Shown here in pieces: positions 5,708 to 27,817 of a stretch of 54,334 nt of DNA. The stretch's first letter is position 1; every line of letters starts with the position of its first letter. Origin of the DNA: Terriglobia bacterium (GTDB lineage Bacteria > Acidobacteriota > Terriglobia > JAIQFV01). The notes beneath the pieces were generated by a model, which worked only from the letters and a program-made list of their open reading frames with translations, did not search any database and had not been told where the DNA came from. Made by a program: the position numbers and the translations under genes. The stretch is from the NCBI GenBank assembly GCA_028716525.1, contig JAQUPQ010000030.1, positions 1-54,334 of the forward strand, read 5' to 3'.

Positions 5708-6118
5708 TTATGGCACAACCAAACCACCACTTACATCTTCTTCGGCTGTTTCGATTCCTCCGCCAACCGACACTGAAATCAATCTTACCCCTTCGGATTC
5801 TCCGTATTTGCTTACCCATAGCGGAGTAAGAGCACCCATCACGAAATCACCGCCCTTGTATCCCGTAAAAACCTTCCCCATCGCGCCTTTGCACTCGGCC
5901 AATAACTCCGAAGCCGCCCGTGTACCATCGGTTAGTTCAAACGCAAGATCGCAGTAGTACCCTCGGTAACTGTGCGGCGCGCACAGATTAGCAACGCGGC
6001 TTTCTGGCGGCATTGATTCGAGGGCCGCGATGAGTAACCCAAGTGTAAGTTGTGTTTTAGAGCGTTCACGTTGCCATTGTGCGCTCATCCCGTCCACAAG
6101 AGCCTGCATATCAAACAT
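5708..6118 (-). CDS. hypothetical protein, 136 aa
   Basis: Starts MFDMQALVDGMSAQWQRER after AAGGAGGGGATAACA. Residues 15-40 are helical (LTLGLLIAALESMP), followed by an alpha-beta region (NLCAPHSYRGYYCDLAFEL). No named family recognised. The same translation-start module is repeated before two neighbours. Confidence 0.6.
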   Translation of the reverse strand: MFDMQALVDGMSAQWQRERSKTQLTLGLLIAALESMPPESRVANLCAPHSYRGYYCDLAFELTDGTRAASELLAECKGAMGKVFTGYKGGDFVMGALTPLWVSKYGESEGVRLISVSVGGGIETAEEDVSGGLVVP

Positions 6119-7935: not shown

Positions 7936-8202
7936 CTAATCTTTCCAATTTTCACAAAGAACCAACAAATCATCCCTTACCGTGCAAGCTCTCGCCTTCT
8001 GCCTCACAGCCGAACGGATTATCCCGATCCCGTTTCCGGCGGCAATCTGCGGCAGTACGTCCATGCAGGTCAGGAACCCGTACTCCTTCCGCAGTTTTCC
8101 GGCGAGTCCGTACATCTTCTCGGAAGGCTTGTCGGTTATCCGGCAGAGTTCGGCAAGGATTATACTCTGCTCGCGGCGGACTTCTTTCTGGCTGTCAGTC
8201 AT
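7936..8202 (-). CDS. hypothetical early protein, 88 aa
   Basis: Helical protein starting MTDSQKEVRREQSIILAEL. Its position between a tRNA-like element and the helicase gene suggests a replication role, possibly as a helicase loader or partner, but I see no motif to prove it. The start follows GAGGGTTTGAA. Its stop abuts the pentamer array. Confidence 0.6.
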   Translation of the reverse strand: MTDSQKEVRREQSIILAELCRITDKPSEKMYGLAGKLRKEYGFLTCMDVLPQIAAGNGIGIIRSAVRQKARACTVRDDLLVLCENWKD

Positions 8203-8224: not shown

Positions 8225-8359
8225 TGGCCGACCGGGAGGACTCGAACCTCCAACGCATAACCAGATGAGCCTCAACCCACCCGGTGTACGAACCGCCACA
8301 CATGGGCCCCACAATGGCGTGCGTTCCCGAACCCTGATTATTTCCGCCACGATCAACCA
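8225..8359 (-). ncRNA. tRNA-like structured element D (type II-like, non-decoding)
   Basis: A 135-nt segment closed by a 10-bp stem (TGGTTGATCG with CGGTCGGCCA). Two unpaired bases (TG) and a GCG/CGC stem follow, as in a tRNA D-arm. A perfect T-arm (GGAGG, loop TTCGAGT, CCTCC) abuts the closing stem, and CCA is encoded at the 3' end. Between the arms are about 80 nt with further inverted repeats and no proper anticodon arm with U33. It overlaps the stop of the 8353-8538 gene and ends 5' of the ribosome site of the 7936-8202 gene. It could be a tRNA with an insert, a tRNA relic or a leader RNA. Confidence 0.45.
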
Positions 8360-9120: not shown

Positions 9121-9816
9121 TCAAAATGGAATATCCGAGTCGCCACCACAGACATCTCCAACAGTGCTGTCGTATTCCTTCGGCAGATCGTCCAGAGGTT
9201 TCTTCTCGCCAACCAGGGCTTTCGCGTCGCCCTCATGGATCACGGAATGGTTCTTCATCGCCTCCGAAAAAATGGAGTACGTCGCCGCGAACATTTTCTC
9301 CGTGTAAATCTCTGGCGGCGGCTCCACGAAGTCCTTGCCGAGCCGTTCCCGAAGCCCCCGCATCACCTTGTCGAACTGCATCACCACTTTCCCGAAAATG
9401 GCGGAATAGGTGAAAACCAGATCGTTGATGCTCGGCGTTTCCATGATGGGGTTGTCCTTCCCGTTGCCGTCCGCTTTCGCCGGAGCCGGAGCCTTGTACG
9501 TGGACTTGTCGGAGCGGAACTCGCCCTGTGCCGTCTTGACCGACCAATAGACTTTCTTGGTGTTGTCCGGTTGTTGGTATTTCCCGATTTCCGCGTCCGT
9601 GCCTTTCTTGCAACGCGCCTCCTGAATCAGATTGTGCAGGGCTTCCGTGGCGAAGAAATTTTTCTCGCCTCCCGCCTCCACTTTGTAGAGCCAGTACGGT
9701 TCCCCTGCGTTGGCTCCGGACTTCGCCGTGCCGGTGATCGGTGTGTCGTAAAGAAAACGCATCTTGACCGGAACATTGTCAAGGAAAGACAGTTTTGGTG
9801 CTCGATTGTCAGCCAT
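9121..9816 (-). CDS. single-stranded DNA-binding-like protein
   Basis: 231 aa. The C-terminus is GGDSDIPF, the acidic tip with terminal IPF used by SSB proteins to recruit partners. An OB-like N-terminal half (VPVKMRFLYDTPITG, YWLYKVEAGGEKNFFA) and a helical second half fit phage SSB analogues. It sits in the replication block between the origin-like region and the helicase. The SSB role is inferred from the tip and context. Confidence 0.6.
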   Translation of the reverse strand: MADNRAPKLSFLDNVPVKMRFLYDTPITGTAKSGANAGEPYWLYKVEAGGEKNFFATEALHNLIQEARCKKGTDAEIGKYQQPDNTKKVYWSVKTAQGEFRSDKSTYKAPAPAKADGNGKDNPIMETPSINDLVFTYSAIFGKVVMQFDKVMRGLRERLGKDFVEPPPEIYTEKMFAATYSIFSEAMKNHSVIHEGDAKALVGEKKPLDDLPKEYDSTVGDVCGGDSDIPF

Positions 9817-10123
9817 TGTGAACCTCCTCTTTTAACGGAGAGGGCGGGGCGCAGACGGACGCCTGGTCATGGCATCCTCTACTTACTTCAACATTGTCTG
9901 CAACCCCGCCCACGGGGGTGGATGGATGGAAATAGGGGCTGTTGTATTCCTTCTGAATTTCCAGGATTTTCCGAGTCGTTTCCTTGCTTGCCACAAAACA
10001 ACCGTCACCAGTTCTTTCCAGACAGCAGAGTAGGGCCAAGAAATTCGACCTCTCCCGACGATCTTCTTCCCATGATGCACAAATCTTGTCAAATGCCGAA
10101 TCAATCATTTCATTAAAGTCCAT
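9809..10123 (-). CDS. hypothetical early protein, 104 aa
   Basis: Starts MDFNEMIDSAFDKICASWEE after GGAGGTGGAAG, helical in its first half. Its end overlaps the start of the SSB-like gene by 8 nt, so the two are probably translationally coupled. It begins 22 nt after element C. No family recognised. Confidence 0.6.
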   Translation of the reverse strand: MDFNEMIDSAFDKICASWEEDRRERSNFLALLCCLERTGDGCFVASKETTRKILEIQKEYNSPYFHPSTPVGGVADNVEVSRGCHDQASVCAPPSPLKEEVHNG

Positions 10124-10144
10124 CTTCCACCTCCGTTAAAAGTC

Positions 10145-10255
10145 GGACAGGCAGGGCCGGATTCTCACCGACATGTAAGTTTTCCCTTGTTGCCCTTTTA
10201 TTGATGCGATGGGGATTACCGCAAGTACGTTTTCCACCGTACCGCCTGCCTGTCC
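10145..10255 (-). ncRNA. tRNA-like structured element C
   Basis: A 111-nt segment closed by an 11-bp perfect stem (GGACAGGCAGG with CCTGCCTGTCC). Inside are a two-base linker (CG), a D-arm-like hairpin (GTAC, loop of 10, GTAC), a 5-bp hairpin GCGGT/ATCGC with a 7-nt loop, about 33 unpaired nt, and a T-arm-like hairpin (GTCGG, loop of 7, CCGGC) that abuts the closing stem with no gap. The linkers match tRNA topology, but the closing stem is too long and the loop lacks U33. It lies directly before the ribosome site of the 9809-10123 gene. Confidence 0.4.
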
Positions 10256-10265
10256 TGAAAGAGTT

Positions 10266-10398
10266 TGGCTGACCGGAAGGATTTGAACCTTCATACGTGT
10301 TTCGCCTTCTTTGAGTCCCATACGGGACTGGAGGCCGTGACGTACAACGAGGGGGAACGGCCCGCCCTTGCGTCTACCAATTGCGCCACGGTCAGCCA
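10266..10398 (-). ncRNA. tRNA-Leu-like structured element B with oversized variable arm
   Basis: A 133-nt segment closed by TGGCTGACCG/CGGTCAGCCA (10 bp). It has the linker TG and a canonical type II D-arm (GCG, CAATTGGTAGA, CGC), and a perfect T-arm (GAAGG, loop TTCAAAT, CCTTC) abuts the stem; CCA is encoded. In place of a normal variable arm is a nested hairpin of TACGT/ACGTA, GCCT/AGGC and AGTCCC/GGGACT. No anticodon arm with U33 can be drawn. It is the clearest tRNA-like member of the set. Confidence 0.5.
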
Positions 10399-10407
10399 TA
10401 TTTATTT

Positions 10408-10485
10408 GGCGGCCCACCGATGGACTCCAGGGGCCTAACGACCCCACACCCAAAAAGGATGTTCGTACCATCATGGCAGGCCGCC
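10408..10485 (-). ncRNA. structured element A, long-stem hairpin domain
   Basis: A 78-nt segment closed by 11 bp including two G-T pairs (GGCGGCCTGCC with GGTGGGCCGCC). Inside are a short hairpin GATG/CATC and alternative stems such as ACATC/GGTGT around CTTTTTG, and GGGG/CCCC. It lies 9 nt upstream of element B in the transcript. It is less tRNA-like than B, C or D. Confidence 0.35.
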
Positions 10486-10722
10486 TAATATTCGTCCGGG
10501 TAGGTGCGCTTGCAACCGAAGCCACACGGTACGCGCCCGCGAGTGCAATTATCGGCAACGAAGCGGATTCGTGTTTCAACGCTTCAATGGCGATATTGGC
10601 TTTTCGTCCATGCGTATGGACACCCGGAAGATTCTCGCGGGACCGGGCGGAGCCACGCCTTCCATTGTCCCGTATTGTTTGATTTTCACTTCCACTTGTG
10701 AGTATCATGGCCCCGCCCTTGT
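10486..10722. other. gene-poor leader between 10723 gene and elements A-C
   Basis: About 240 nt with no convincing gene. A long minus-strand frame stays open through this stretch and through elements A-C, but it reads the tRNA T-arms as peptide, so I do not call it. Short GTG frames exist without a good ribosome site. Confidence 0.5.
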
Positions 10723-14453: not shown

Positions 14454-14613
14454 TAGATTTTAAGGCTAATTTCTTCACTTTTTCCGATATTCCTCTGGTA
14501 CAAAACATCGGCAAATATTTTCAAAGACCGACGTTTTGTAACATCGTGTACCATGAAGATGTAACAAGTTACAAAATTCCGCGCCTTTTAACAAGTGGAC
14601 GGTTTCCGTACAA
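14454..14613. other. regulatory region with GTAACATC inverted repeats
   Basis: Non-coding. It contains GTAACATC and GATGTAAC separated by 12 nt (about 14538-14565) and a nearby GTTACAAAA, a layout typical of operators. No gene is supported on either strand. Confidence 0.45.
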
Positions 14614-14631
14614 TTCGCAAGAAATTGCGAA
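14614..14631. promoter_or_regulatory. operator-like palindrome TTCGCAA-N4-TTGCGAA
   Basis: Arms of 7 bp with spacer GAAA. The same arms occur at 16077-16094 with spacer GAAT, and a related core GCGAATATTCGC follows the head-operon promoter at 42352-42365. Recurrence at three transcription boundaries suggests a regulator binding site. Confidence 0.6.
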
Positions 14632-14663
14632 TTTAACACTTTTGTTAATTTGGCGGATTTGAG

Positions 14664-14698
14664 AATAAAAAAGGCCCGGCGAGAAGGGTCCGGGCCTT
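14664..14698 (-). terminator. strong terminator of the late operon
   Basis: AAGGCCCGG/CCGGGCCTT (9 bp, 10-nt loop) followed on the minus strand by a T run. It comes about 20 nt after the stop of the holin-like gene and marks the end of the long late transcript. Confidence 0.85.
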
Positions 14699-14720
14699 GT
14701 ACGGAGGAGGAGAAGGGGAA

Positions 14721-18901: not shown

Positions 18902-21900
18902 TTACCAAATTACATCGTAACCGTTAAGACCGGACGCATTGAGCAGAAACCAGTTCTGCATATTGTTTATACAGTAGGAAAGGACTTCAAAATTCACCCC
19001 CCCGACAAGGTTCAGGGACTGAATTCCGTAAACTTCCGCAATCGCGCTAATGGTAGGTTTTTCAAGAACAAATTCCACCCAGTCGCCGGGCTGTGTCAAA
19101 ATCTCCAACAGGGAAAGCGAATACTTGAAACAAGTGATCCCGTCGTTCCACATCCAATACCGATGCTGTGCAACGGACGCGGCGTAGGATTCCACCCAGC
19201 ATCCAGGAAGCCCGATGTATTTCGTCCGCTTCACGCCGTGCTTGATATAAGACTTGTTTTTTTCGTCCGACGGCGGCCATACGTATTCGTACATATATTC
19301 AGAGTTCAAATAGTCGTATCCGTACCGTACCACGAACTCGTTATAAGGTTCAATTGTCGTGATCGTCGGAACCGGGAAAGTGATATTTGTATCGTACCAA
19401 TGCGCCGCAGTTATACTTGCCGGATTGTGCGGACGGAACGAGTGCAGTTTGTCGACACCCCAATTGTCCGTCCATACATATCCGTCCAAATGTTTTACAA
19501 TTTCCTCAATCGCCTGCAAGATCGTCTGCGCGCGGTCGAGCGAGAATGTAATGTCATAGTTCATTATATCGCAGTAATGATATTCTGCATCCCATGTAAA
19601 ATCGGCATCATAGGCCGCCCGTTGCTTCCAAGTTACCGTTGCGGCTTTGGTATAAGAATTTGCCAGAGCCGAAACGACAAGCGTTATATAAGGCGGATAT
19701 TTCGCTGTGGCCGCGACACCCGTTGAAACCGTTACGTCCTCGGTCGTGGTCCCCTCGGTGATTGTCAGAACTTCGGCGGCCTTGATGTACGCCGGGACGT
19801 TCACGGCAACGCGGATGGTCGTGTCCCCGGCCGTGAAAGATTCGTTCAGGGTTCCGATGGTTTTGGCCCCGAAATACGAGGAGCAATCCAGATACTTGTT
19901 GTCTATCCCGGCATGGTTTACGTACAAGTCGTAAAGCGCGGATACGACGTTCTGGTTCTCGAAATTGATGCACGTCGAGAACTTGCACATATCGTAAACG
20001 ACGGGGGTTCCTCCGAACGCCGAGAACGGGATTCTGACCGATTCCTGGCCTACCTGTTGGCTGTCAGAGGTCGAAATCCTGAATACGCCGAGTGAATAGT
20101 CGGACGCGCCCAAAACATAGGCGTAATCGCCGTATAGAGCGAGATGGATGGCTCCGTCAAGGTAGTTTGGCGAACCGTCGGACGCGAGATGGTCCACGGT
20201 TGCAGGCGAGGCAGGCGTAGAAACGTCCACAACGGTCAACGAGTCGTCATTGAACGCGGCAACGTAGCAGTACGAATCACGTTTTACAACCGCGTAAGCA
20301 CCACCGAGATAGTTGGCGGAACCTGAACCTGCCAGCGCGCCTTCCTTCACAGGGTTTGCCTTGTCCGTGATGTCGATAACCAGAAGCGCGTGATTTGTCG
20401 TGTCAACCAAATATGCGTAATCGCCATCGACGTACAAGTCTTTTGCGGCCGTGAGATAGTCCGGCGCGGCCGTACAAGAGCCTGTCAGGGACGGCGCGGC
20501 AGGGTTGGAGATGTCGATAATCTTGAACGTATCGGCATCGACGCAATAGGCGTAATCGCCAAGCACAAACAGGCAGTTATGGTTTGGGGTGGTGAGCGCA
20601 ATGTTTCCCGTTGCGGACGGGTTTTCGGGGTCTGCGAGGGAATAGACGTAAAGCCCTGATCCGGCCGCCAACGCCCAAACTACGTAAAGATTTTCACCGA
20701 GCACAAACGGATTCGGAGCCGTGCTTGCGCTGACCGCGCCGCTTGGCGTGGTGATTCGTGTCTGGTACGCCGGATTAAATCTGTCCGTAACGTCGAGAAT
20801 GGTTACGCAATCGTCGTCCTGTGTTCCGACAAAGAGATAATCGCCCTTGATGGCCAGATGAATGGGATTGTCCAGATAGTTCGGAGATCCGGTTCCGGAA
20901 ATTCTGGAAATCGCAACGGGGTTTTCTTTTTCGTGTATGTCGAAAATATCCACCGCGTCCGTCGAGTCCGCAATGTACAGATAATCGTTATCAGCAAGAA
21001 CCTTGCGCGGCGTGATAGCGTAGGACTGATACTTTACGTTCCCGTAGGTCTTGACGGCGTAGAGATTGATCCGGCCCTTCACGCCTTCGATAACATCCGG
21101 CCCGTAGAGTTTAAAACCCTGGCTTCCGAGGCTCGTTATCGAAACATCGTCAAACCCGGCCGAATCGTCCCGGCTTCCCATCCCGCAAAGCCCGGCCCCG
21201 TGCGTGGTGTCTGTAACCTGAAAGACTTGAACGGAATCATGCCACATTGTTATCACGCCGTCAAGCCGTTGTATGGTAAACTCGTGCCAATCCGTATCGT
21301 CAAGATACGCGGAGGCAGCCCAAGAGCTGATCAGGGAACCTATCCCGCTAACAACATTCCACAACTCTATCTGCGGGTTCCCGCTGTTATTGTTTACATT
21401 CACGTAATAATAATTGTTCGCGTCCTCGTAGCCGAACACAAGCGCAAAAGCATATCCCCCCGACAGGGCTTCGTTTATCATGGCCTGACAAGTAAACTCG
21501 AAGTTGTAATATTCGATTCCAGTTACAAGCGCAAGTTCTCCGAGCCTGTTGTAGTCCAGCGCGCCATAAGCAGAAGTATTGATATACCAGCACGTCCGCC
21601 CTCCGAGTGCGCCGTTGGTCCAGCGTGTAGCGGTCAGGGGGAGCCAGCGATAATCAACCGCCGAATCAAAGTTGTCCGTGAAGTCCTCGCCAACGACAAC
21701 GCTTTCCTCCTGATAAAACTCTACCGTCCACTCTCCGAGTTTGGCGTTACTTAAAACGGCAACCTTCGCTCGGTCAAGTGTTCCCTCGGAGCCGTCGTTC
21801 CAAATCACCGTATCGGCAATCGTGCCCGTGGTATCAACACGCTTCAATTTGTCCGAGTCGCCCGTTTCCGCGCCGCGTAGAACCTGATCCAGGTGGTACT

Positions 21901-26133: not shown

Positions 26134-26736
26134 TCAGTTCGTCGGAGAAAGGTTTGTATCCGTAGCGTCGGGCGATGTGCTCTCGGATTCGCCACTCTGC
26201 AAAACCTTCATTGTCGAGTTTTTTGCTTCGCGCGCCACCTCGTTGATCTTTCCGGTAAGTTCAAGATATTTCTGCGCCAGAAGGTTCATGAGGTCGGCGT
26301 TGGAGCAAAGAATATCCTTGAACGCCACGCGGTCGTCGGAGGTCGGAAAGAGTTTGTTCCCGCCACGGTCTTTAAGGAACATGGGGATAAGTTCCTGGAT
26401 CGTCCGGACCTTCGAGAATTTCTTGGCCATCTGCTCGGCAAGATTGCGCGGCTTTTCCTCCTCGATCCGTTTCCGAGCCTCGCCCTTGAAGGTTTTCACT
26501 TCCGCGCGCCAATCATCTTCATTGACGGCCATGTCAGCAAAGCCCTTCGCGCGGAGTTCGGCGTACCGGCCCTGATAGACTTCCTCTTGCACTTCGAGAA
26601 TGGAATAAACGTCCGGGGCGGTCAGAACAGCGTCAACGTGGCCCGTATCACCGGGAAGTGGGATCTGGAATTGGACGGAGATGGTTTTCTTTTCGTAGGC
26701 GGATTTGATGATGTCAATGGGTTTGAGTCCCGACAT
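26134..26736 (-). CDS. tail assembly chaperone (G part)
   Basis: 200 aa, starting MSGLKPIDIIKSAYEKKTIS after GGAGAAAACAAC. It has the acidic helical make-up of siphovirus tail chaperones (VYSILEVQEEVYQGRYAEL, QYLVL-type C-terminal helix). Codons 172-173 form the slippery A AAA AAC; without a shift it ends at SPTN 28 codons later. It lies between the tail tube genes and the tape measure. Confidence 0.8.
   Translation of the reverse strand: MSGLKPIDIIKSAYEKKTISVQFQIPLPGDTGHVDAVLTAPDVYSILEVQEEVYQGRYAELRAKGFADMAVNEDDWRAEVKTFKGEARKRIEEEKPRNLAEQMAKKFSKVRTIQELIPMFLKDRGGNKLFPTSDDRVAFKDILCSNADLMNLLAQKYLELTGKINEVAREAKNSTMKVLQSGESESTSPDATDTNLSPTN
26218..26224 (-). promoter_or_regulatory. -1 programmed frameshift site, A AAA AAC
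   Basis: The heptamer is in the correct register with the upstream frame (GCA AAA AAC). After slipping, translation reads into the 25853 frame without a stop. The heptamer is a classic X XXY YYZ slippery sequence and sits where tail chaperone frameshifts are expected. Confidence 0.8.
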
Positions 26737-26995
26737 TGTTGTTTTCTCCTTTCTCGATCGTTTCATCTACCAGTGCGAATACGTGCCGCTTGACGGCCAT
26801 GTACTGCATGGAAAAATCAAGGAACTTCTGAATATCGGACTTGGGGGGCAGTTTACTTTTGTCCGCGTAAACCGCCACCCCAAGCCTCGAATTTCTCTCG
26901 ACCAAATACCGGTCAGGCTCCACGCCGGACACGAATTTGATCGCGGCAATCTCAAAAAGGTTAATCGTCGCGTGTTCCCGTTTTCCCTCTTCCAT
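26714..26995 (-). CDS. small tail-region protein, 93 aa
   Basis: Starts MEEGKREHATINLFEIAAIK after GGAGGTTTGAAA. Mixed alpha-beta with no motif. Lies between the tail tube and the chaperone and overlaps the chaperone start. Probably a tail morphogenesis factor. Confidence 0.6.
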   Translation of the reverse strand: MEEGKREHATINLFEIAAIKFVSGVEPDRYLVERNSRLGVAVYADKSKLPPKSDIQKFLDFSMQYMAVKRHVFALVDETIEKGENNNVGTQTH

Positions 26996-27013: not shown

Positions 27014-27817
27014 TTAAGCGGATACTTTCGCCCACAGACACGAAACAACGTCCGAAGCGGCCGGGGTTCCGGTGGTGAATGTGATGGTCCCGGATGCTCC
27101 GATGGTAATGCCGGACTTGACCCGCTTGGTCGTCCAGGAATCGGACTTGTCTTTCAACTTGACAAACACGGCGGTGTCATAGTCCCAGTCGTCATGCGAA
27201 GTCGCGGTAACGAGCGTAACGGGCGTGCCTGAGGACATCTGGTAAACGGCCGTTGTCGGCGTGGCGTTGAACTTGTCAAACACCATTTCAGCACCAGAGC
27301 AGAGGACAAACGGCTCGTGATAGGTGTGGAATTTGATCGTCCGGTCGCCATAGTCCATCTGGTTGGTGAAGCCGATGTCGTCAATAACCATGTCCTGGAT
27401 GACAAGGGAGAACAGGACCGTAACATTGTCAGAATCCCTGCAAATGGCTTCCCAGTGTCCGACCGGAAGATCGTTTTCCTGGCGGAGCGAGAGGACACCC
27501 GTTCCGGCAGTGGACCAGGTCTGCCCGTAGAACGTGGCAAGATCAGTCCAAGCCTTTCCGCCGAGAATGGTAAGGGTTCCGTCCCAGCGCGGTCCGCGCC
27601 GGATATGGGTTTTGTCGTCGCCGCCGCCCTGCTGGAAAATGTCCGCCTCGTAGTCCCATGACGGTTCTCCGATTTCAATCTGGGTGATGTAGGACATATT
27701 CGTCCACACCACCGGAGCCGCGACGGTCGCCTCTTGGCGGACAAAGCGGTTAAGCGTAAAACGCCCCATCTGGTGCGAATTTGCCGCAGGCGCACCGAGT
27801 TGGTCAGTTTTTGCCAT
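27014..27817 (-). CDS. major tail tube protein
   Basis: 267 aa, beta-rich with an N-terminal long arm (LGAPAANSHQMGRFTLNRFV), in the standard place between the tail terminator and chaperone genes. Good ribosome site (AGGAGG). Identification rests on synteny, size and composition. Confidence 0.7.
   Translation of the reverse strand: MAKTDQLGAPAANSHQMGRFTLNRFVRQEATVAAPVVWTNMSYITQIEIGEPSWDYEADIFQQGGGDDKTHIRRGPRWDGTLTILGGKAWTDLATFYGQTWSTAGTGVLSLRQENDLPVGHWEAICRDSDNVTVLFSLVIQDMVIDDIGFTNQMDYGDRTIKFHTYHEPFVLCSGAEMVFDKFNATPTTAVYQMSSGTPVTLVTATSHDDWDYDTAVFVKLKDKSDSWTTKRVKSGITIGASGTITFTTGTPAASDVVSCLWAKVSA

Follow-up and report, generated by a model that had tools for sequence, protein, structure and literature searches.

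A non-coding stretch with tandem structured RNAs in a tailed phage

The sequence analysed here (the window) comprises an entire contig of 54,334 bp (JAQUPQ010000030.1) from a bacterial genome assembly, and this report concerns three tandem structured RNA elements in it, A, B and C, together with a fourth, F, which like B has the frame of a tRNA-Leu and no anticodon arm. The window belongs to a tailed phage: it encodes a DnaB-like helicase, a replication initiation protein, a DNA methyltransferase, a tape measure protein, a terminase, a portal protein and a major head protein, all on the minus strand. The RNA strand of elements A, B and C is therefore the minus strand, and all features of the window described below are on that strand. 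Comparison of the window with phage and plasmid DNA gave no similarity.

Elements A, B and C lie within positions 10136–10722, in a stretch that an earlier note, made from the sequence alone, had described as free of genes. Our data agree. The 213-aa open reading frame (ORF) across 10136–10722 has a codon-usage score of −0.008, compared to 0.211 ± 0.075 for phage genes; it matches nothing in PHROGs, and its one Pfam match is sub-threshold (E = 0.08). The stretch is non-coding. Neighbouring ORFs of 104 and 140 aa also have low codon-usage scores, yet clear ribosome-binding sites precede their starts; that of the 104-aa gene (9809–10123), which is without a family match, comes directly after element A. 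The SSB operon named in the earlier note finds no support in Pfam, PHROGs or PDB sequence comparison; the neighbouring 231-aa protein has no SSB match there and no relatives in viral contigs. ARAGORN called no tRNA in the whole window, neither ARAGORN nor Rfam found a tmRNA gene there, and Rfam at both gathering and permissive thresholds gave no match for the window elements.

The closing stems, their coordinates and the gaps of about 10 nt are also as first described. The stems are 11 bp without G-U pairs in A (span 111 nt), 10 bp without G-U pairs in B (133 nt) and 11 bp with two G-U pairs in C (78 nt), and the gaps are 10 nt (A–B) and 9 nt (B–C). Taken alone, the stems are weak evidence, with five perfect stems of at least 10 bp at such a span in the window and 3.5 expected by chance. 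Two such stems end to end were seen in 0 of 40 shuffles. A closing stem of at least 9 bp stacked on a T-like hairpin (5-bp stem, 7-nt loop, T54 and A58) was found in A, B, F and one AT-rich match (minus strand), compared to none in 12 single-strand shuffles.

Elements with a tRNA-Leu frame in the window

Element B (10266–10398, 133 nt) is a tRNA-Leu-framed RNA without an anticodon arm. Its perfect 10-bp closing stem pairs TGGCTGACCG (10389–10398) with CGGTCAGCCA (10275–10266), a strand that includes C73 and in which the CCA at 73–75 is paired with UGG. U8 is present, and the D-arm GCG-CAATTGGTAGA-CGC (10370–10386), with A14, A15, G18, G19 and A20a, falls within a 25-nt stretch that is 92–96% identical to tRNA-Leu(UAA) genes of the host's relatives. 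The T-arm GAAGG-TTCAAAT-CCTTC (10276–10292) has seven of seven T-loop consensus positions and is stacked on the closing stem. Both arms had been recognised in the earlier note. Between them is a structured insert and no anticodon arm. Stem S1 of the insert (GGGCCGT at 10357–10363, partner ACGGCCT at 10338–10332) crosses stem S2 (GTACGT at 10340–10345), whose partner ACGTAT (10298–10293) lies beside the T-arm, at the variable-arm position. The crossing pair, GGGCCGU/ACGGCCU with GUACGU/ACGUAU, has a p-value of 0.02 against dinucleotide shuffles, suggesting a possible pseudoknot, and the minimum free energy (MFE) structure holds only S2. A covariance model, R1, which was built from 34 metagenomic sequences with the window excluded and gives rough E-values, matched B at 49.4 bits (E = 4.9e-10 in the window). 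The Rfam tRNA model RF00005 did not match B up to E 10; some members of the phage class described below do pass RF00005, with long inserts.

Two features had been overlooked in the earlier note: the T-like hairpin stacked on the stem of A, and element F (8225–8359, 135 nt), which lies outside the region it covered. F is a second tRNA-Leu-framed RNA (R1 28.1 bits, E = 7e-5) with a 10-bp stem, TGGTTGATCG/CGGTCGGCCA, a D-arm with stem GCG/CGC and a 21-nt D-loop (8321–8347, from the sequence and the model alignment) and a perfect T-arm GGAGG-TTCGAGT-CCTCC (8235–8251, seven of seven T-loop positions). Its stem is nearly that of B, and the differences preserve pairing (C-G to U-G, U-A to U-G). B and F have the frame and the closing stem in common and their middles are unrelated; with one frame and different middles, this phage therefore shows the pattern of the class. 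When R1 was run on the whole host genome, the best matches were the canonical tRNA-Leu genes and B; F was also found, along with weaker matches to other canonical tRNAs.

Element A (10145–10255) has a closing stem of 11 bp, a pair of hairpins, a largely unpaired stretch of about 33 nt and, on the stem, the T-like hairpin GTCGG-TGAGAAT-CCGGC (z about −2.6). The D-arm and T55/C56 are lost, and R1 scores it at 21 bits (E = 0.004 in the window). Since R1 returned two matches (33.4 and 21 bits) at E up to 1 when run on other phage loci totalling 985 kb, the score of A alone is not decisive; A is probably a diverged class member. By eye its 3' end (GGTGAGAATCCGG) resembles part of a cobalamin riboswitch, for which Rfam had no match up to E 10.

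The positions of A and F raise the question whether they regulate the genes downstream in cis, as a leader of the attenuator or riboswitch type. The ribosome-binding site of the 104-aa gene lies shortly after the end of A, and F is directly upstream of the ATG at 8202 (an 88-aa gene) and its ribosome-binding site. However, no riboswitch or leader in Rfam matches, B and C are not adjacent to the 104-aa gene, and class members occur in many unrelated gene contexts and in tRNA clusters. The leader switch put forward in the earlier note is weakened because of these varied contexts and because F precedes a different gene, and we consider it improbable.

A class of tRNA-Leu-framed RNAs in tailed phages

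Viral contigs were searched with the pattern ATTGGTAGACGC-N60-90-GGTTCRANTCC; in normal tRNA-Leu the spacing of these motifs is clearly shorter. At least 120 viral-contig loci matched; in most of them one and the same frame encloses a middle of 50–120 nt that is hypervariable. A second scan with a spacing of 91–120 added further members, with a total length of up to about 165 nt. The pattern samples only near-consensus Leu-type frames, and these counts are therefore lower bounds. Judged by sequence matches, the class occurs in more than 100 phage contigs, mostly of uncultured phages and often in several copies per genome. The commonest frame, TAGTCAGG-TGGCGGAATTGGTAGACGC ... ACAGGTTCGAATCCTGT-CCTGACTA, is found with totally different middles, and one contig (locus L167) has at least five class members adjoining 16 tRNA genes. 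A stricter class pattern had one match in about 85,000 named prokaryote genomes, and one Chitinophagaceae metagenome contig carries a class member. The earlier note had suggested a covariance-model search of related phages for the whole set. R1 finds B, F and, weakly, A, and does not find C; in contigs with distant helicase or terminase relatives, its strongest matches were canonical tRNAs and there was no clear class member.

The search pattern fixes part of the D-arm and T-arm, including A15, G18G19 and A20a, but does not ask for an acceptor stem. Among the matches listed, 97/120 have an acceptor stem of at least 6 bp in the exact tRNA register (most commonly 8 bp), and real pairing (at least 6 bp) is clearly separated from random pairing (0–3 bp). 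When 34 sequences were aligned, pairing was seen in 98.7% of frame cells and double changes in 11 of the 16 pairs. Double-changed cells numbered 100, compared to 22 in shuffles, and pairing dropped to 34–39% once the partner was shifted by one column. Because acceptor pairing was a condition for choosing these 34, the acceptor register in the pattern matches is the unbiased test. The acceptor stems covary strongly. U48, which is outside the pattern, is kept in 86/91 members, and A20a in 84/91. The 3' ends of members (N73, C74, A76) resemble those of canonical-size tRNAs on the same contigs. The U-1:A73 pair, considered as a hallmark, is about equally common in those tRNAs and was therefore dropped as a class feature.

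One cultured phage has a member. In Bacteroides phage BS-TP2 (PQ571275.1), an unannotated RNA at 19549–19657 (80.6 bits) lies in an intergenic gap of 153 nt, flanked by the genes for DUF2303 and NinG within a module for replication and recombination, and ARAGORN called no tRNA in the 13-kb region around it. It carries a pseudoknot whose pairing is supported by compensatory changes in relatives. An RNA identical to it is present in several other contigs, and an identical middle is found in separate Bacteroides phage contigs. A cultured Bacteroides phage makes the class directly testable. Separately from this tRNA mimic, PQ571275.1 contains a tRNA 3' end at 5809–5927, probably an attachment site.

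These data bear on two further explanations. The elements could be decaying tRNA-Leu genes without function, as their descent from tRNA-Leu is clear, the decoding arm is absent, the middles are hypervariable and the window phage has no canonical tRNA. Decay would not be expected to leave closing stems, D- and T-arms and elbow nucleotides intact, to limit the differences between the B and F stems to pair-preserving ones, to produce class-wide covariation, or to keep an identical middle in separate Bacteroides phage contigs, and we regard it as unlikely, on a par with the leader. Alternatively, the inverted repeats, found near replication genes, could act as DNA (a cruciform, an attachment site or an origin structure), and phage attachment sites can carry tRNA pieces, as the tRNA 3' end in BS-TP2 illustrates. 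Here, however, both tRNA halves are kept together with tRNA-specific unpaired nucleotides (U8, A14, U48 and the T-loop), and several copies per genome with different middles do not resemble an attachment core. Of all the explanations considered, a DNA-level element is the least probable.

The position of members relative to genes is also distinctive. Only 10/127 long members (defined below) lie mostly within a long ORF, compared to 61% of random positions, and where another tRNA is found within 2 kb of a member it is on the same strand in 40/40 cases. Intergenic placement is what would be seen if the frames were processing punctuation, excised by RNase P and 3' nucleases to separate polycistronic mRNAs with the middles being irrelevant. 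The tandem arrangement of A, B and C with gaps of about 10 nt and the location of A and F directly before ribosome-binding sites fit this as well. Such a role leaves unexplained the long, structured, phage-specific middles, the pseudoknots, and the several copies amid ordinary tRNA genes able to do the same job, and the 10-bp helix of B and F is a poor design for RNase P. Punctuation, also proposed in the earlier note, is thus possible but fairly unlikely, although it is the strongest of the rival explanations.

The anticodon arm is missing and probably not interrupted by an intron

We define the class by a Leu-type frame, the lack of an anticodon arm and a middle of more than about 48 nt. Among 156 distinct elements, 29 have a short middle and 127 a long one. 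A canonical anticodon arm directly after the D-arm was found in 17/29 short-middle elements and in 0/127 long-middle elements. Anywhere in the element, an anticodon arm was found in 8/127 long members compared to 3.9 in shuffles.

ARAGORN called none of the 127 long members but accepted 112/127 when introns were allowed, so tRNA genes with small introns, spliced to functional tRNAs, must be considered. The anticodons assigned in these calls scatter across amino acids despite the single Leu frame. A split anticodon stem, such as an intron would leave, is not enriched in the class, nor are anticodon-stem halves enriched at the D-arm end, and hairpins whose loop is of the anticodon type occur at close to the chance level. 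Some loci (L154, L187 and L172) do resemble intron-bearing tRNA-Leu, but as an account of the class we consider introns very unlikely, slightly more so than decay. The intron-allowing calls are a likely source of wrong annotation, and public phage annotations may contain such false tRNAs.

Several individual loci stand apart. In the tRNA-Leu genes L154, L187 and L228, the anticodon region contains an insert that resembles an intron; two of the three have acceptor stems of 11–18 bp, and they look unlike the main class. In L227, a 402-kb phage contig, two different tRNA frames (1641–1777 and 1837–1973) contain inserts of about 60 nt that resemble each other (AGCTNCGACNCTC, hairpin, TGTCATRAGCCTACANGC) and may represent a small intron or a mobile insert. 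A terminase-related phage contig (L240, 1490–1600, minus strand) has a tRNA-Leu 5' half with an anticodon arm and no 3' half in place, perhaps an intron-interrupted tRNA.

Variable middles and crossing stems

Within the middles, the segment that most often has a six-base complement is the one ending two bases before the T-stem, which is the place of the variable arm (38% compared to 13%). A crossing stem pair is enriched, with 21/83 at p up to 0.05. A universal pseudoknot was considered and rejected, as the crossing pair is enriched without being universal and compensatory support is confined to one subfamily. In the diverged relatives L122, L193 and L216, the first stem is constant (GAGTA/TACTC) and the second compensates (GAGCTTT/AAAGCTC, GCACAAT/ATTGTGC and GTTGTAAT/ATTACAGC). 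MAFFT misplaced the second stem of this subfamily, and its pairs were therefore read from the sequences.

Interpretation of the class

These data establish the tRNA-Leu frame, the lack of an anticodon arm, the covariation of the acceptor stems, the placement between genes and the presence of several copies per phage. We think it reasonably likely that B, F and probably A are non-decoding tRNA-Leu-framed RNAs of a large tailed-phage class, which probably undergo tRNA-like maturation and act as mimics in trans, a function that we infer from their structure. What they retain of a bacterial tRNA-Leu is its upper half, with the acceptor helix, both the D- and the T-arm and the elbow nucleotides; the anticodon and variable arms are replaced by an element-specific structured domain, with a pseudoknot in some members. 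In this model, the RNAs would be transcribed together with neighbouring minus-strand genes, and the frame would route them into tRNA maturation, making them stable. The elbow would be the feature that host proteins recognise and the variable domain would give each RNA its own target. Acting in trans, each RNA could occupy a protein that binds tRNA, for example a synthetase, a translation factor or a defence nuclease that cuts tRNA. As the elbow is common to all members, a mimic recognised through it, with specificity from the variable domain, appears to be the best common explanation. Among the roles listed in the earlier note, the mimic idea fits best because B and F keep the elbow, lack the decoding arm and belong to a class in more than 100 phage contigs; punctuation leaves the middles and the copy number unexplained.

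Several observations weigh against this interpretation. No middle motif is common to the whole class, so that any common target is hypothetical, and a comparison of the middles with the phage genome for antisense pairing gave no match beyond chance length (10–11 nt). Conservation of the D- and T-arms is partly due to selection by the search pattern. The R1 match of A is weak (21 bits) and C gives none. Finally, in B and F, C73 pairs with G-1 and the CCA is hidden in the 10-bp closing stem, a design unfavourable to charging and perhaps also to RNase P cleavage.

The last point matters for the question of leucylation. E. coli leucyl-tRNA synthetase (LeuRS) requires A73, A15-U48, G18G19, A20a and D/T-loop contacts but not the anticodon; forms without the anticodon and variable arms are still leucylated, and C73 abolishes charging (PMC9976931). 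The sequence of B contains the A15-U48, G18G19, A20a and D/T-loop contact set. The full leucine-identity set is present in 58/91 members, with A15, G18G19 and A20a partly a result of pattern choice, and A73 is present in 67/91. Since most members satisfy the LeuRS set and have tRNA-like 3' ends, tRNA maturation and, for many, leucylation are plausible. Members with A73 conform to the E. coli rules for anticodon-independent leucylation and may be charged with leucine. For B and F, with C73 paired with G-1 and CCA paired with UGG, charging is unlikely, and they are probably not leucine-charged.

More broadly, and more tentatively, tailed phages may commonly use the Leu-tRNA frame as a standard scaffold for interchangeable folded domains, an undescribed tool kit that exploits the host tRNA machinery, though we put this at somewhat short of even chances. 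If so, RNAs directed at different host targets, such as defence enzymes that cut tRNA, would be produced, stabilised and possibly aminoacylated by the host tRNA machinery. The class is relevant to the use that infecting phages make of tRNA mimicry, including against defence systems that cut tRNA. A standard tRNA finder either overlooks its members or gives them a wrong name.

Comparison with known tRNA-like RNAs

We found no description of such a class in the open-access literature searched. RNAs with tRNA-like domains are already known (tmRNA, Y RNAs and plant-virus ends); what appears to be new is a broad class of phage RNAs that combine a constant tRNA-Leu frame with a replaced anticodon arm and occur as several different copies per genome. 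Like the class, tmRNA has the upper half of a tRNA without an anticodon arm and other structure that includes pseudoknots, and is present in phages, whereas class members have a full D-stem and a Leu-type elbow and are much shorter (109–165 nt). There was no tmRNA among the ARAGORN calls for long members, in a run that covered tRNAs only. Rfam 15 includes a YrlA model, and the Y RNA family in Rfam had no match in the window region (E up to 5) or in 15 member loci (E up to 1). The class is unlike the YrlA bacterial Y RNAs (cited in PMC7790460) in that its RNA ends form the acceptor stem. No Ro60 neighbour was seen in the few member contexts read. Phage-encoded tRNAs have the same D- and T-arms and 3' end pattern and often lie in the same clusters; in contrast, class members have no anticodon arm, cannot decode and are not called by ARAGORN. 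GOLLD and ROOL RNAs are sometimes found near tRNA genes. These ornate RNAs (PMC12286853) are, like the class, structured phage and bacterial RNAs, but they are far longer, and Rfam gave no such match for the window elements. Plant-virus tRNA-like structures also represent viral tRNA imitation, some being pseudoknotted and some aminoacylated (cited in PMC9976931 and PMC3399842). They are the 3' ends of RNA virus genomes, whereas the class comprises separate intergenic RNAs of DNA phages, and we found no sequence relation. The Bacillus cereus pseudo-tRNA tRNA-Other (PMC3399842) is likewise a tRNA-like RNA that is not functional in translation and has been retained for a different role; it differs in having a Trp anticodon and is not a phage class with hypervariable middles.

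Element C and other structured stretches of the window

Element C (10408–10485) had been described as having D-like, anticodon-like and T-like hairpins. These arms were not recovered: its MFE structure is a very stable rod with a three-way junction on the 11-bp closing stem (z = −6.2; 0/200 shuffles equally stable), and R1 gave no match with filters off. As modelled, C is not tRNA-like. A possible further structured element at 10645–10718 has a 13-bp closing stem with two G-U pairs (z = −2.8) and an R1 score of only 2.8 bits.

Three other stretches on the minus strand have repeats or strong hairpins. A degenerate run of GGTNNGG-like repeats at 7960–7865, just upstream of the helicase gene, possibly represents origin repeats. 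A very stable long hairpin is present at 26821–26940 (z about −5 to −6), between the ORFs at 26134–26766 and 27014–27817. The lowest value in the folding scan of the window (z = −7.2) is at 14581–14700, where a strong hairpin resembling an intrinsic terminator (GGCCCGG...CCGGGCCTTTTTT) is followed by another structured stretch.
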